Assembly: GCA_016788115.1 (NCBI GenBank)
Contig: JAEURR010000005.1
Coordinates: 434,001 to 498,000 of the forward strand
Source: Chthonomonas sp.
Lineage (GTDB): Bacteria; Armatimonadota; Fimbriimonadia; Fimbriimonadales; Fimbriimonadaceae
DNA length: 64,000 nucleotides
Direction: 5' to 3'
This document shows, piece after piece, positions 38,136 through 45,417 of this stretch. Both the position numbers and the translations under genes were made by a program. Below the pieces are notes generated by a model. That model was not told the origin of the DNA and made no database searches. It saw nothing but the letters and a program-made list of their open reading frames with translations. Each line of letters opens with the position of its first letter. Position 1 is the stretch's first letter.

Positions 38136-38870
38136 GTGATTCACGAGGTCGCCGTACTCACTCCCGAGAAGGTGTCGCTATCTTACCGGGTGGCCCGCGC
38201 GGGAAGCCGTATTCAGGCGCATTTGCTGGACCTCCTGATCTTTGGTGCACTTGTTTGGGTCTGTACGTTCGCCTTAGGCGCTCTGGGCATGGAGTTCGTG
38301 GTTTCGCTCCTGCAAAGGTTCGGATTGTTCTTGCCATTCATTTTCTTTATCCTGACCGAGGGGCTCTGGAACGGCAACACGCTCGGGAAGAAGGCGATGA
38401 AGATCCGCGTCGTGATGACCGATGGAACGCCGCTCACATTCCGCGCGGCGGTCTACCGAAACTTCCTCCGGCCAGCCGACTTCCTGCCCGCGTTCTATAC
38501 TTTCGGGCTCATCTCGATGTTTATCAATCCGAGAGGCCAGAGACTTGGCGATATTGCCGCGGATACCATGGTCATCCACACCGGGAACGAAAAGCCGATC
38601 TTCGAAGTCTCGCCGCACAAGATGGGTATCCACCCGCTGGAACAGCACGTGGGCGAGCTCCGCTCGATGAGCTTGGAAGAGTACGTGGCGCTGAAACGAC
38701 TTGCCGATCGGTTCCCGCAACTCAGCCCGCAATACCAAGCCAAGCTGCTGGAAACGGTCTGGGAGCCGTTCCGCGTACGCTCGCAGATCTCGCATCTGGA
38801 CGGAGTGCACGACGTCTATCTGATTGAGGCTGTGGTCATGAAATTCGGACGTTTACACAAGCTCGTGTGA
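38136..38870 (+). CDS. RDD family membrane protein
   Basis: A 244-residue inner-membrane protein. The RDD hallmark appears as RVARAGSRIQAHLLDLLIF at the N terminus, with three to four helices (about 28-55, 65-82, 115-135), and NPRGQRLGDIAADTMVI after them. A cytoplasmic helical tail of about 90 residues follows. The family is of uncertain role; some members export Na+ or Li+ ions. The start is GTG. The putative origin region lies directly downstream. Confidence 0.85.
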   Translation: MIHEVAVLTPEKVSLSYRVARAGSRIQAHLLDLLIFGALVWVCTFALGALGMEFVVSLLQRFGLFLPFIFFILTEGLWNGNTLGKKAMKIRVVMTDGTPLTFRAAVYRNFLRPADFLPAFYTFGLISMFINPRGQRLGDIAADTMVIHTGNEKPIFEVSPHKMGIHPLEQHVGELRSMSLEEYVALKRLADRFPQLSPQYQAKLLETVWEPFRVRSQISHLDGVHDVYLIEAVVMKFGRLHKLV

Positions 38871-39055
38871 CAATCGGTGGAAAACTGATGGATCGAGTTT
38901 GGGGGGGTCTCGACATGGGAAAACCCACGGATTGAAACCTATACATAGAGCGATTTACCCACACGGTTTTCCACGGTGCGCCGATAGGCGTTCTATTACA
39001 GGCTTAGGTTCCTTCAGGTCAGTTTCGAGCGGCAGACCTACAATTACACCGAGAG

Positions 39056-39064
39056 TTATCCACA
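39056..39064 (+). promoter_or_regulatory. Perfect DnaA box
   Basis: TTATCCACA matches the DnaA consensus exactly. It lies 13 bases before a TAA/TAG trinucleotide run and 62 bases before the recF start. Confidence 0.8.
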
Positions 39065-39077
39065 TTCTCGAATCCCA

Positions 39078-39092
39078 TAATAGTAATCATAA
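39078..39092 (+). other. DnaA-trio-like element
   Basis: TAA-TAG-TAA-TCA-TAA in register, 13 bases after the perfect DnaA box and at the start of an AT-rich stretch. Established knowledge: origins of many bacteria carry such trinucleotides next to DnaA boxes, where DnaA loads on a single strand to open the duplex. One of the five units (TCA) deviates. Confidence 0.55.
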
Positions 39093-39126
39093 TCTCTTTC
39101 TCTAAACACCTCTTCTTAGAATATTC

Positions 39127-40212
39127 ATGCTGAAGACCCTGGCGATCCGCGACTTCCGGAACTACGAAGAGGCCCACATTGAGCTGAGTGCGGGGCTCAA
39201 CCTCGTCTACGGTCAGAACGCCCAAGGGAAAACCAACCTCCTGGAGGCCATCGCGCTCATCTCGACGGCGCAGCTGCTACGAGGCCACCGGGACGCCGAA
39301 GCCATTCGCCATGGGTGCGAAGAGGCGAGGATCCGAGGCGAGCTGGTGGAGCACTCGACCACCGTAGAGGTTCAACTCAGGCGAGGCGTTCGCAAGCGAG
39401 CTCTTTTGAACGACATGGGTTTGAGCCGCGCGGCGGACTTGCTCGGACGGCTACCGACCGTGACATTCACGACTCGAGACCTGGAGGTCCTCCGCGGAGA
39501 ACCGTCAGAAAGGCGTCTGTTCGTCGATTTGGCGCTCTCCCAGCTCTCGGCGGGGTATCTCAGGCATTTGGCTCACTATCGCCGGGCAGTGGACCAGAGA
39601 AACGCTTTGCTGAAGATGGCACAAGAGCAGACGGTGGAGTCCGAGTCGTTTGAGGTCTGGGAGGCAGAACTGTGCGAGCACGGTGCCGCATTGCGAGAGC
39701 TGCGCCACGACTACGTACGTCGGCTCGCAGGCGAAGCAACCGGCTTCCATCGCCAATTGGCGAATGGCGAAATCCTCGGGGTGGTCTACATGCCGAAAGA
39801 CCCTGGGGCGACGCCCGATGAGCTCAGTGCTGCTTACCGGCACCATCGGAGCGTGGAGATCCACCGAGGGGCGACTCAGATCGGACCCCATCGGGATGAT
39901 ATCTACTTTACGATCAATGAGTTAGAGATCAAGTTGTACGGATCACAGGGTCAGCAGCGGAGCGCAATGATCGCTTTGAAGATGGCGGGGCTGGCGGTTG
40001 CAAGACAGATCTTGCGCGCGTCACCGATCCTTTTGCTCGATGACATATTCTCGGATTTGGATAAACACCGCCGGTCGAACTTGATTCAATTGGGACTCGA
40101 ACATGGCGGCCAAGTCTGCATTACTTGTACGGAACCAGAGCAGGCGGGCGAAGATTTGATGAAGCAAGCCCGGCATTTTGAGGTACGACAAGGTGTGGTG
40201 TCACAGCGATGA
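39127..40212 (+). CDS. recF: DNA replication and repair protein RecF
   Basis: A 361-residue SMC-like ATPase that loads RecA at gaps with RecO and RecR. Walker A is GQNAQGKTNLLEA, the signature motif region includes GSQGQQRSAMIAL, and Walker B is PILLLDDIFSDLD, all intact. The N terminus MLKTLAIRDFRNYEE is typical. The next gene (DciA-like) overlaps its stop by four bases. recF commonly lies near dnaA and dnaN; here it sits directly beside the DnaA-box region. Confidence 0.96.
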   Translation: MLKTLAIRDFRNYEEAHIELSAGLNLVYGQNAQGKTNLLEAIALISTAQLLRGHRDAEAIRHGCEEARIRGELVEHSTTVEVQLRRGVRKRALLNDMGLSRAADLLGRLPTVTFTTRDLEVLRGEPSERRLFVDLALSQLSAGYLRHLAHYRRAVDQRNALLKMAQEQTVESESFEVWEAELCEHGAALRELRHDYVRRLAGEATGFHRQLANGEILGVVYMPKDPGATPDELSAAYRHHRSVEIHRGATQIGPHRDDIYFTINELEIKLYGSQGQQRSAMIALKMAGLAVARQILRASPILLLDDIFSDLDKHRRSNLIQLGLEHGGQVCITCTEPEQAGEDLMKQARHFEVRQGVVSQR

Positions 40213-40535
40213 GACGGCTTTCCGATCTGCTCGCACTTTCGGTCGATCGGCCCGAGGTGCTAAGGGCGAGCCGCGCGCAACCCATTGTGCGGCGATGGAA
40301 GGAGTTTGCCGGACCCGTCTTGGGCGAGCGTTGCGTCCCAGATCGGTACGACCATGGGACACTTTGGATTGCGGCCAAAGGAAACGCTTGGGAGCAGGAG
40401 TTGCGATTTCAGAAGGACCGCATCCTGGCGATGATGAACGAGGCAGCGGGCGAGGAACTGTTCACGCAGATGCGGATTGGCACCCGCCCCCCGCGCCGAG
40501 ACTGGGAAGCGGCGCCGGACCCCCTGAAGGATTAG
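40209..40535 (+). CDS. DUF721 / DciA-like protein
   Basis: A 108-residue protein with the DUF721 core: a tryptophan after an arginine pair (RRWKEFAGPVLGERC), then LWIAAKGNAWEQELRFQKDRIL, matching the KH-like fold of DciA. DciA is the predicted ancestral loader of the replicative helicase DnaB, so the gene fits the neighbouring recF and candidate oriC. The start overlaps the recF stop by four bases. The DciA name is inferred from family and context. Confidence 0.85.
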   Translation: MRRLSDLLALSVDRPEVLRASRAQPIVRRWKEFAGPVLGERCVPDRYDHGTLWIAAKGNAWEQELRFQKDRILAMMNEAAGEELFTQMRIGTRPPRRDWEAAPDPLKD

Positions 40536-40541
40536 CAACCG

Positions 40542-41912
40542 ATGGCCGATCCCTGGAAATCCCGACCGCTCCTCATGGTTGCCGTCGGGTTGGGAGCGGG
40601 AATGTCCGCGCCGTTTTTTGCCTACGCCCCCCTCTTGCTACTGTTACCTTTATTGATGAGCAGACGCTGGGCTACAGTCGCAATGCTCGTTCCTTCGTAT
40701 CTTGTAGGCGCATTCCTTGCTCCGGGGCCGGCCGTGAAACCTGTCCATGAGGAGCGATACGCGCGCAAGACGGTCGACATCGTCTCGCTTCCGCAAACAA
40801 CAACGGACGGCTACTCGTTCATTGGTAGCAGCGGTGCGGAGCGGTTCCTCGTCACAACACGGCAACGATGGGACGTCTCGTGGGGTGACCGAGTCGAACT
40901 GAGCGGGTGGATCGCGCCACTTGGGGAGGCCGCGGAGCGGCGGATGACTCAACAGGGCATCAGTGCGCAGCTCAAAACGAGCATGGAGCCCGAGGTCGCG
41001 GAACGGGGAGCGTACATCTGGCGGCTTGGGCTGGCCGTCCGGTCGAACTTCTTGGCCTACTCCGATCGGCTGTTGAACTCGGAGCGGTCGGCACTGCTCG
41101 ACGCAATGTGCTTCAACCACCGAGGAGACCTCGACCTCGACACCAGCCAAGCGTTCCAGCGATCAGGCTTGGCGCACCTGATGGCTGCATCGGGATCGAA
41201 CATCCTTTTGATTTCCGCGGCACTTTTCTGGGCTGGAAAGTGGCTTCCGTTGCCAAGATGGACGGTCCTTTGTCTCATCTCTGCGCTTTTATTGCTCTAC
41301 GTGGCCGCAGCAGGAATGACTGCATCGGTCATACGAGCATATGGAATGGCGGTGCTCTACTTCCTGGCGTACGGTTTCCGTCGCGAATACGATAGCCTCA
41401 GCGCGCTGTCGCTGGTGTTCATTGTCAACGTCTTGCTTGCACCGATGACGCTCTTCGACGTAGGGTTTCAGATCTCGTACGCCTGCCTCTTCGGGCTGTC
41501 GCTATACCCGTTCGACTGGCAATCGGCGAGCCGTTGGACCTTTGGGCAGCGGGTCCAAGCCGGTGTTTTCCTCGCCCTCAGTGGATGGATCTTCTCGTCG
41601 CCGCTAGCCGCCTACCATTTCCATGCCGTGCCCTTGGCTGGAGGAGTGGCAACGCTGCTCGCCGAGATTCCGTATTCGCTGCTCGTGTGGGTCGGCATGG
41701 GGGGCTGGGTGGTCTCCAGCGTGGCGTTCGGGTTCCTCAATCCGGTGATCGCGCCGATCGTTGGGATCGCGCTCGACTTCGTGGCCGGATTGGCTCGTGT
41801 GGCGGCAAGCCCGTCTGTGTGGACTTCGGTGGCTCCTTTCTCAGTCTGGTGGTTGGTGGTGATCTATGGCATGGCGCTTATCCTTTGGCGGCCCCATTGG
41901 CGACCGGCTTAG
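40542..41912 (+). CDS. ComEC/Rec2 channel part (N-terminal and competence domain)
   Basis: A 456-residue membrane protein. An N-terminal pair of hydrophobic helices (about 10-55) and an OB-like domain (about 70-150) are followed by the ComEC competence domain: FNHRGDLDLDTSQAFQRSGLAHLMAASGSN is its hallmark, then about eight helices. It would form the inner-membrane channel that takes up one DNA strand. The metallo-beta-lactamase domain normally fused at the C terminus is in the next, overlapping frame. The frame ends at a TAG just where the last helix would follow. Confidence 0.9.
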   Translation: MADPWKSRPLLMVAVGLGAGMSAPFFAYAPLLLLLPLLMSRRWATVAMLVPSYLVGAFLAPGPAVKPVHEERYARKTVDIVSLPQTTTDGYSFIGSSGAERFLVTTRQRWDVSWGDRVELSGWIAPLGEAAERRMTQQGISAQLKTSMEPEVAERGAYIWRLGLAVRSNFLAYSDRLLNSERSALLDAMCFNHRGDLDLDTSQAFQRSGLAHLMAASGSNILLISAALFWAGKWLPLPRWTVLCLISALLLLYVAAAGMTASVIRAYGMAVLYFLAYGFRREYDSLSALSLVFIVNVLLAPMTLFDVGFQISYACLFGLSLYPFDWQSASRWTFGQRVQAGVFLALSGWIFSSPLAAYHFHAVPLAGGVATLLAEIPYSLLVWVGMGGWVVSSVAFGFLNPVIAPIVGIALDFVAGLARVAASPSVWTSVAPFSVWWLVVIYGMALILWRPHWRPA

Positions 41913-42744
41913 CATCCTAAGCGCGCTGGTTTTGGCGGGCCTTTTGGGCCAGAGTGTGCTGCGCGCAAGTCCCGCTGACTCTCCAGATCGCATCGTCTTC
42001 TTGCAGGTGGGCCAGGGCGATTGCACGGTCATTCAGAGTGGGGGGACGACGGTGCTGGTCGACTCGGCCGCGCGGAACGACGTCCTAGATGCGGGCGAAT
42101 CGCTTGCGGTGCCGCAACTCTACGATCTGGGAGTACGCCACATCGACGCGATTATTCTCACCCATCCCGACTCGGACCACGTGGGGGGCCTCATCTCGGT
42201 GAGTCGGCACTTCGCAGTAGGGAAGGTCTTCGTGAACGAGGCTTTTCGCCAGCACCCGGACATGCTCCGCACGTTGGCGCTCTCTCGCATTACTTCCGAT
42301 CGGGTTCTGTGGGTGTCCTCCCAGCGTACGCTCACCTTCAATCGCGCTTCGCTGAGGATCGTCGCGCCCCCGGGCGAGCAGCCAGACAACGACAATGACG
42401 GCTCGTTGCTCACATGGGTGACGATGGGAAAATCCTCGGCCCTGCTGATGGGCGACGCTTCGGCGAACGTGGAGTACGACCTCGTAGCGCGTGGGTTAGT
42501 TGGCCCGGTGGATCTCTTGAAGCTTGGCCACCACGGCAGCGGCGGATCCACATCTGCAGAGTTCTTGATGCGTACGCAGCCCAAATGGGGTCTGGTGAGC
42601 TGCGGACGCAACAATACCTACGGCCACCCCAATGCGGGCGTCCTGGAGCGTCTCAGGGCCGTACATTGCCGTGTTTGGCGGACGGACCGGCAGGGCGAAG
42701 TGGAGTTTCGCCCTACCGCCGCCGGATTTGCACTAGCGCCCTAG
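41866..42744 (+). CDS. ComEC nuclease-like part (metallo-beta-lactamase domain)
   Basis: A 292-residue protein in the +1 frame relative to the channel part, overlapping it by 47 bases. It begins with one hydrophobic helix (about 16-33, LSILSALVLAGLLGQSVL) that corresponds to the last helix of full-length ComEC, then the metallo-beta-lactamase fold: VGQGDCTVI, HPDSDHVGG and KLGHHGSGGSTS. This domain is thought to degrade the non-transported strand. Whether the break is natural, a frameshift mutation or an assembly error cannot be told here. Confidence 0.88.
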   Translation: MAWRLSFGGPIGDRLSILSALVLAGLLGQSVLRASPADSPDRIVFLQVGQGDCTVIQSGGTTVLVDSAARNDVLDAGESLAVPQLYDLGVRHIDAIILTHPDSDHVGGLISVSRHFAVGKVFVNEAFRQHPDMLRTLALSRITSDRVLWVSSQRTLTFNRASLRIVAPPGEQPDNDNDGSLLTWVTMGKSSALLMGDASANVEYDLVARGLVGPVDLLKLGHHGSGGSTSAEFLMRTQPKWGLVSCGRNNTYGHPNAGVLERLRAVHCRVWRTDRQGEVEFRPTAAGFALAP

Positions 42745-45401: not shown

Positions 45402-45417
45402 CGTTTCACGTGAAACG
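45402..45417. other. parS: parS chromosome-partition site
   Basis: CGTTTCACGTGAAACG is a perfect 16-base palindrome. It matches the bacterial parS consensus TGTTtCACGTGAAACa at 14 of 16 positions; only the outermost bases differ. It lies in the gap between the ABC ATPase gene and valS, about 6.3 kb from the candidate oriC. parS sites, bound by ParB, cluster around origins. parA and parB are not in the window. Confidence 0.82.

Follow-up and report, generated by a model that had tools for sequence, protein, structure and literature searches.

Gene context and DnaA boxes

The window, that is, the whole 64,000-nt stretch of DNA that was analysed, corresponds to G000:C5:434001-498000 and belongs to an assembly of 2.395 Mb in 9 contigs. 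It contains a 256-bp intergenic gap between a gene for an RDD-family membrane protein and recF. The features of the locus, in window positions, are as follows:

38136-38870, plus strand: RDD-family membrane protein gene (PF06271), left flank of the gap
38871-39126: intergenic gap, 256 bp, between the RDD-family gene and recF
38876-38884, minus strand: DnaA box with one mismatch, TTTTCCACC; many relatives have distal minus-strand boxes at a similar place
38955-38963, plus strand: DnaA box 1 of a conserved triplet, TTACCCACA, at most one mismatch; 12 bp ahead of box 2 throughout the family
38967-38975, plus strand: DnaA box 2 of the triplet, TTTTCCACG, at most one mismatch; ~88 bp ahead of box 3
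39056-39064, plus strand: DnaA box 3, perfect, TTATCCACA; adjoins the unwinding tract
39065-39076: spacer of 12 nt separating box 3 from the trios (published peak 10-13 nt, PMC8287927)
39066-39126: AT-rich tract, ~70 % A+T in a genome of 60 % G+C
39077-39094, minus strand: six DnaA-trios; top strand ATA ATA GTA ATC ATA ATC, lower strand six consecutive 3′-NAN-5′
39127-40212, plus strand: recF (TIGR00611, E 8e-96, 321 bits)
40209-40535, plus strand: dciA, helicase-loading protein family (PF05258, E 1e-17, 64 bits), next gene after recF
45402-45417: parS, CGTTTCACGTGAAACG, with the exact 14-bp core, 6.3 kb from recF

An earlier, sequence-only reading of this DNA had described one perfect and three degenerate DnaA boxes in the gap, followed by recF and a DciA-like gene. 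The boxes were recovered as described, the degenerate ones carrying one mismatch each, and the two genes were confirmed by TIGR00611 and PF05258. ComEC (40542-42744) is present as two overlapping genes, one for a Competence-domain protein and a separate one for a metallo-beta-lactamase-domain protein; a similar split is found at locus L220 (see below).

Boxes were counted at up to one mismatch to TTWTCCACA. Four such sites were observed in the gap versus 0.04 expected, and these are 4 of the 11 in the 64 kb window. Single boxes across the whole window are at chance level (5 found versus 5.5 expected), so only their clustering in the gap is significant. The perfect box is one of four exact copies of TTATCCACA genome-wide.

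DnaA-trios and AT-rich tract

The strand on which the trios lie was placed partly from general knowledge of E. coli oriC. Trios were taken to lie downstream of TTATCCACA, on its complementary strand, as deduced from the 5′-tailed scaffolds in PMC8287927; a top-strand reading (TAA TAG TAA) was dropped, since published trios sit on the complementary strand. In the published origin-unwinding module, at least three trios follow a DnaA box after a spacer that can reach 16 nt and peaks at 10-13 nt (PMC8287927), a perfect trio being CTA on the complementary strand (PMC8235120).

The basal unwinding system was searched for as a box with at most two mismatches, a spacer of 0-16 nt and at least three consecutive 3′-NAN-5′ trios; the gap contains a perfect box, a spacer of 12 nt and six trios. 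With a box at up to one mismatch and at least four trios, the gap was the sole such site in the 400 kb of contig tested. By using a score built on the published criteria, only two of 2050 tiles reached the value of the gap, both of them overlapping and covering the gap. The AT-rich tract is presumed to be the site of duplex opening.

Conservation among relatives

Loci carrying recF were gathered from relatives, and the box triplet was tested on 34 recF loci of the family against 340 dinucleotide shuffles. Three plus-strand boxes, spaced by 12 and ~88 bp, recur upstream of recF in the family at a near-constant distance from the gene, and the triplet outscores all 340 shuffles at 21 of the 34 loci. 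A search of 61 whole genomes with the box 2-box 3 pattern gave 13 matches; 12 lie directly upstream of recF, one of these in a different family of the same order (G037), and the reversed control pattern gave none in the same 61 genomes. It is recF, and not dnaA, that is preceded by the conserved box layout in many genera. The end of the RDD-family gene is conserved upstream of the candidate origin as well, as judged by alignment. Degenerate boxes were found upstream of recF in G005 and G034.

At most family loci, a tract resembling YTA ATA RTA ACA ATA (five repeats) begins 8-16 nt, usually 11-13 nt, after the third box; the fit to this consensus is partly circular, since the same consensus anchored the rows. 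Strict runs of at least three NAN trios are present in only a few relatives because later trios deviate. The fourth trio often reads 3′-TGT-5′, and conservation is stricter at the third position (T) than at the centre. By the generic score, the real loci have a mean of 5.2 versus 1.4 for shuffles.

Box clusters were also identified upstream of recF in G045, G037, G038 and G039 and, more weakly, in G040; in several members of a sister family (genus g37 and others), recF is preceded by no boxes. The G045 locus (L211, from another family than the window) carries a dense tandem DnaA-box array upstream of recF with several exact copies of TTATCCACA 2-4 bp apart, which is an origin layout quite different from that of the family of the window.

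Two further records deserve mention. The recF gene of G009 (L194) has one in-frame TAG, either a sequencing error or a broken gene, and its upstream boxes are still recognisable. Locus L220 (JADZEW010000015.1) is titled 'Methanoregulaceae archaeon isolate SJ84'; its RecF is identical to that of a bacterial relative (G013) and it shares the arrangement of RDD gene, gap and recF, which suggests a mistitled record or a contaminated bin. A recF scan of the named genome collection yielded no relatives, and an alignment-based scan returned mostly Firmicutes and few named relatives. One named record, Fimbriimonadales bacterium SKW30, encodes a RecF with 91 % identity to that of G059, a member of the same order, which makes Fimbriimonadales (Armatimonadota) the most likely source of the window; its family, f1, is putatively Fimbriimonadaceae.

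Position and upstream regions of dnaA

Neither dnaA nor dnaN, one or both of which flank a canonical origin, adjoins the gap. Their absence from the window had been stated in the sequence-only reading and is accounted for by their positions: dnaA lies at C5:354 kb, in the same contig as the gap but 119 kb away from it, and contig C8 carries dnaN. The genes of the classical cluster thus occupy three separate places. The DnaA protein is full-length (TIGR00362, 456 bits), includes the box-binding domain PF08299 and can be aligned over its entire length with the B. subtilis DnaA in structure 8btg.

A better box cluster beside dnaA had been named beforehand as evidence that would speak against an origin at recF. 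This was checked, and dnaA was found to have a single box. In relatives, the regions upstream of dnaA show no cluster comparable to that at recF: most have just one box, which recurs among them, and others have a few that are scattered.

In about half of the relatives the recurring box (TTATACACA or GTATACACA), on the strand opposite dnaA, precedes the dnaA ATPase motif by a near-constant distance. Examples are L001:2396-2404, at the upstream end of dnaA, and similar sites in L057, L059, L066-L068, L079 and others. It may be a site of dnaA autoregulation, in which case dnaA probably starts further downstream than the GTG that opens its longest frame.

parS and recF

The parS match that had been reported 6.3 kb away was found again as CGTTTCACGTGAAACG. 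The match is weak when taken alone (0.22 expected at its mismatch level); its exact 14-bp core occurs as one copy only in this genome, and a gene for ParB is present. With TGTTCCACGTGAAACA as the parS query, no match was obtained at up to two mismatches. Sites of this kind normally lie close to the origin (PMC7022226).

Exact parS cores are present in 32 of 61 genomes. In 22 of these, parS and recF are on one contig, and all 29 exact cores there lie 0.2-19.1 kb from recF; the 22 genomes are related and hence do not represent 22 independent events. In the other parS genomes, recF is on another, mostly fragmentary, contig or was not found. The linkage of parS to recF persists while the distance to dnaA shifts from ~100 to 860 kb. 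One exact core lies within the recF coding region (G029:C10:8444-8457).

GC skew

GC skew is weak in this group. In the window and its contig, too, it is weak, with no clear minimum at 39 kb, where recF lies. Cumulative skew was also viewed in relatives: 20-kb stretches were sampled from four single-contig genomes (G012, G020, G009 and G034). In G012 the sampled minimum falls at 455 kb (recF at 459 kb) and in G020 at 925 kb (recF at 931 kb). It lies ~0.3 Mb from recF, and nearer to dnaA, in G009 (2515 kb; recF 2216 kb, dnaA 2661 kb) and in G034 (955 kb; recF 1300 kb, dnaA 1012 kb). When the dense samples near recF were thinned, the minima of G012 and G020 stayed within ~25 kb (raw skew). Combined rotation ranks of the four genomes gave p ~5e-4 for raw skew and 0.015 after correction for gene direction.

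A skew minimum at 39 kb had been named in the sequence-only reading as support for an origin. In two of the four complete relatives the minimum does fall at recF; in the other two it is displaced, and in the contig of the window itself the skew is too weak to decide. GC skew is supportive, not decisive, as evidence for the origin.

Assignment of the gap

The 256-bp gap upstream of recF is very probably the chromosomal replication origin (oriC), and a DnaA-dependent one. The origin function proposed for it earlier gains strong, sequence-based support from the conserved box layout, the trios, parS beside recF and the skew minima of two relatives. If so, the gap would be an origin of a familiar type placed among unusual neighbouring genes.

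Placing the origin beside dnaA, or between dnaA and dnaN, would make the boxes upstream of recF a secondary DnaA-binding site. This is the usual bacterial place, the dnaA-dnaN interval was favoured by the authors of the F. ginsengisoli genome (PMC4072686), and the sampled skew minima of G034 and G009 point the same way. Such a location is nevertheless unlikely: no box cluster was found upstream of dnaA, parS lies at recF and not at dnaA (for example in G001 and G008), and in G020, where dnaA is at 68 kb, the skew contrast has the wrong sign at dnaA and is optimal at recF.

DnaA boxes can regulate promoters. The position of the cluster directly upstream of recF would suit a DnaA-responsive promoter or operator of recF-dciA; another non-origin possibility is a DnaA titration or reactivation locus of the datA/DARS type. 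A role of either sort is slightly less probable still, as a trio tract at the published spacing is not needed for regulation, parS and the skew minima converge on the same place, and promoter-like matches in the gap lie on the minus strand only, with no forward sigma-70-like promoter among them. It is highly improbable that this conserved non-coding stretch ahead of a gene is an RNA element or recF leader that resembles DnaA boxes by chance, since what is conserved in it is DnaA-box 9-mers plus a tract with 3-base periodicity, and a search of the gap against Rfam gave no match up to E 1.

Beyond the sequence evidence, the binding of DnaA, the opening of the strands, the loading of the helicase and the activity as an origin are inferred. 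DnaA, made from the gene 119 kb away, would bind box 3 (39056) as well as the box 1-box 2 pair (38955 and 38967). Extending from box 3 across the 12-nt spacer onto the lower-strand trios (39077-39094), it would stretch the trio strand and open the AT-rich tract as far as the start codon of recF. Loading of the DnaB helicase would come next, perhaps with DciA, and the new origins would be segregated by ParB bound to parS, 6 kb away.

Comparison with known systems

The arrangement resembles the basal unwinding system of B. subtilis oriC (incC), formed by DnaA-boxes 6/7 and trios (PMC6669920, PMC8287927), in that the box is oriented towards the unwinding tract, the spacer falls within the published peak, the lower-strand trios have a central A and distal boxes lie upstream. 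It differs in that the gap is not beside dnaA, the proximal box lacks a nearby tandem partner and the trio tract of relatives shows the fourth-trio and third-position features given above.

As in the dnaA-dnaN-recF-gyrB origin cluster of many bacteria (PMC4285127), recF still adjoins the candidate origin; unlike in that cluster, dnaA and dnaN lie elsewhere and recF is followed by dciA and then ComEC-like genes. A canonical parS core close to the putative origin and a ParB gene in the genome match chromosomal ParB-parS systems (PMC7022226), with the difference that this genome has only one exact core site.

In Fimbriimonas ginsengisoli Gsoil 348, which probably belongs to the same class, dnaA, dnaN and recF are scattered too; no box cluster was found there, and a jagged GC skew led to a guessed origin near 5.13 Mb (PMC4072686). 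The present result instead predicts an origin by recF, which is reported at 1,929 kb. A search confined to the literature found nothing beyond PMC4072686 on the origin in the Fimbriimonadales group.

Implications

A broader interpretation has about even chances of being right. It holds that this family of Armatimonadota and parts of its sister families have lost dnaA and dnaN from the origin site yet kept the origin at recF-dciA, with a family-specific trio code (third T, fourth 3′-TGT-5′), and that published origin assignments for the class based on dnaA or on skew are wrong.

If true, the reading of the gap locates the origin that the F. ginsengisoli genome paper could not find. A conserved candidate of ~250 bp with precise bounds makes the origin question testable, and natural variants are added to the DnaA-trio code. 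The position of dnaA is a poor guide to the origin in the Fimbriimonadales group, and an origin at recF would permit replication rates in this group to be estimated from metagenomic read depth.
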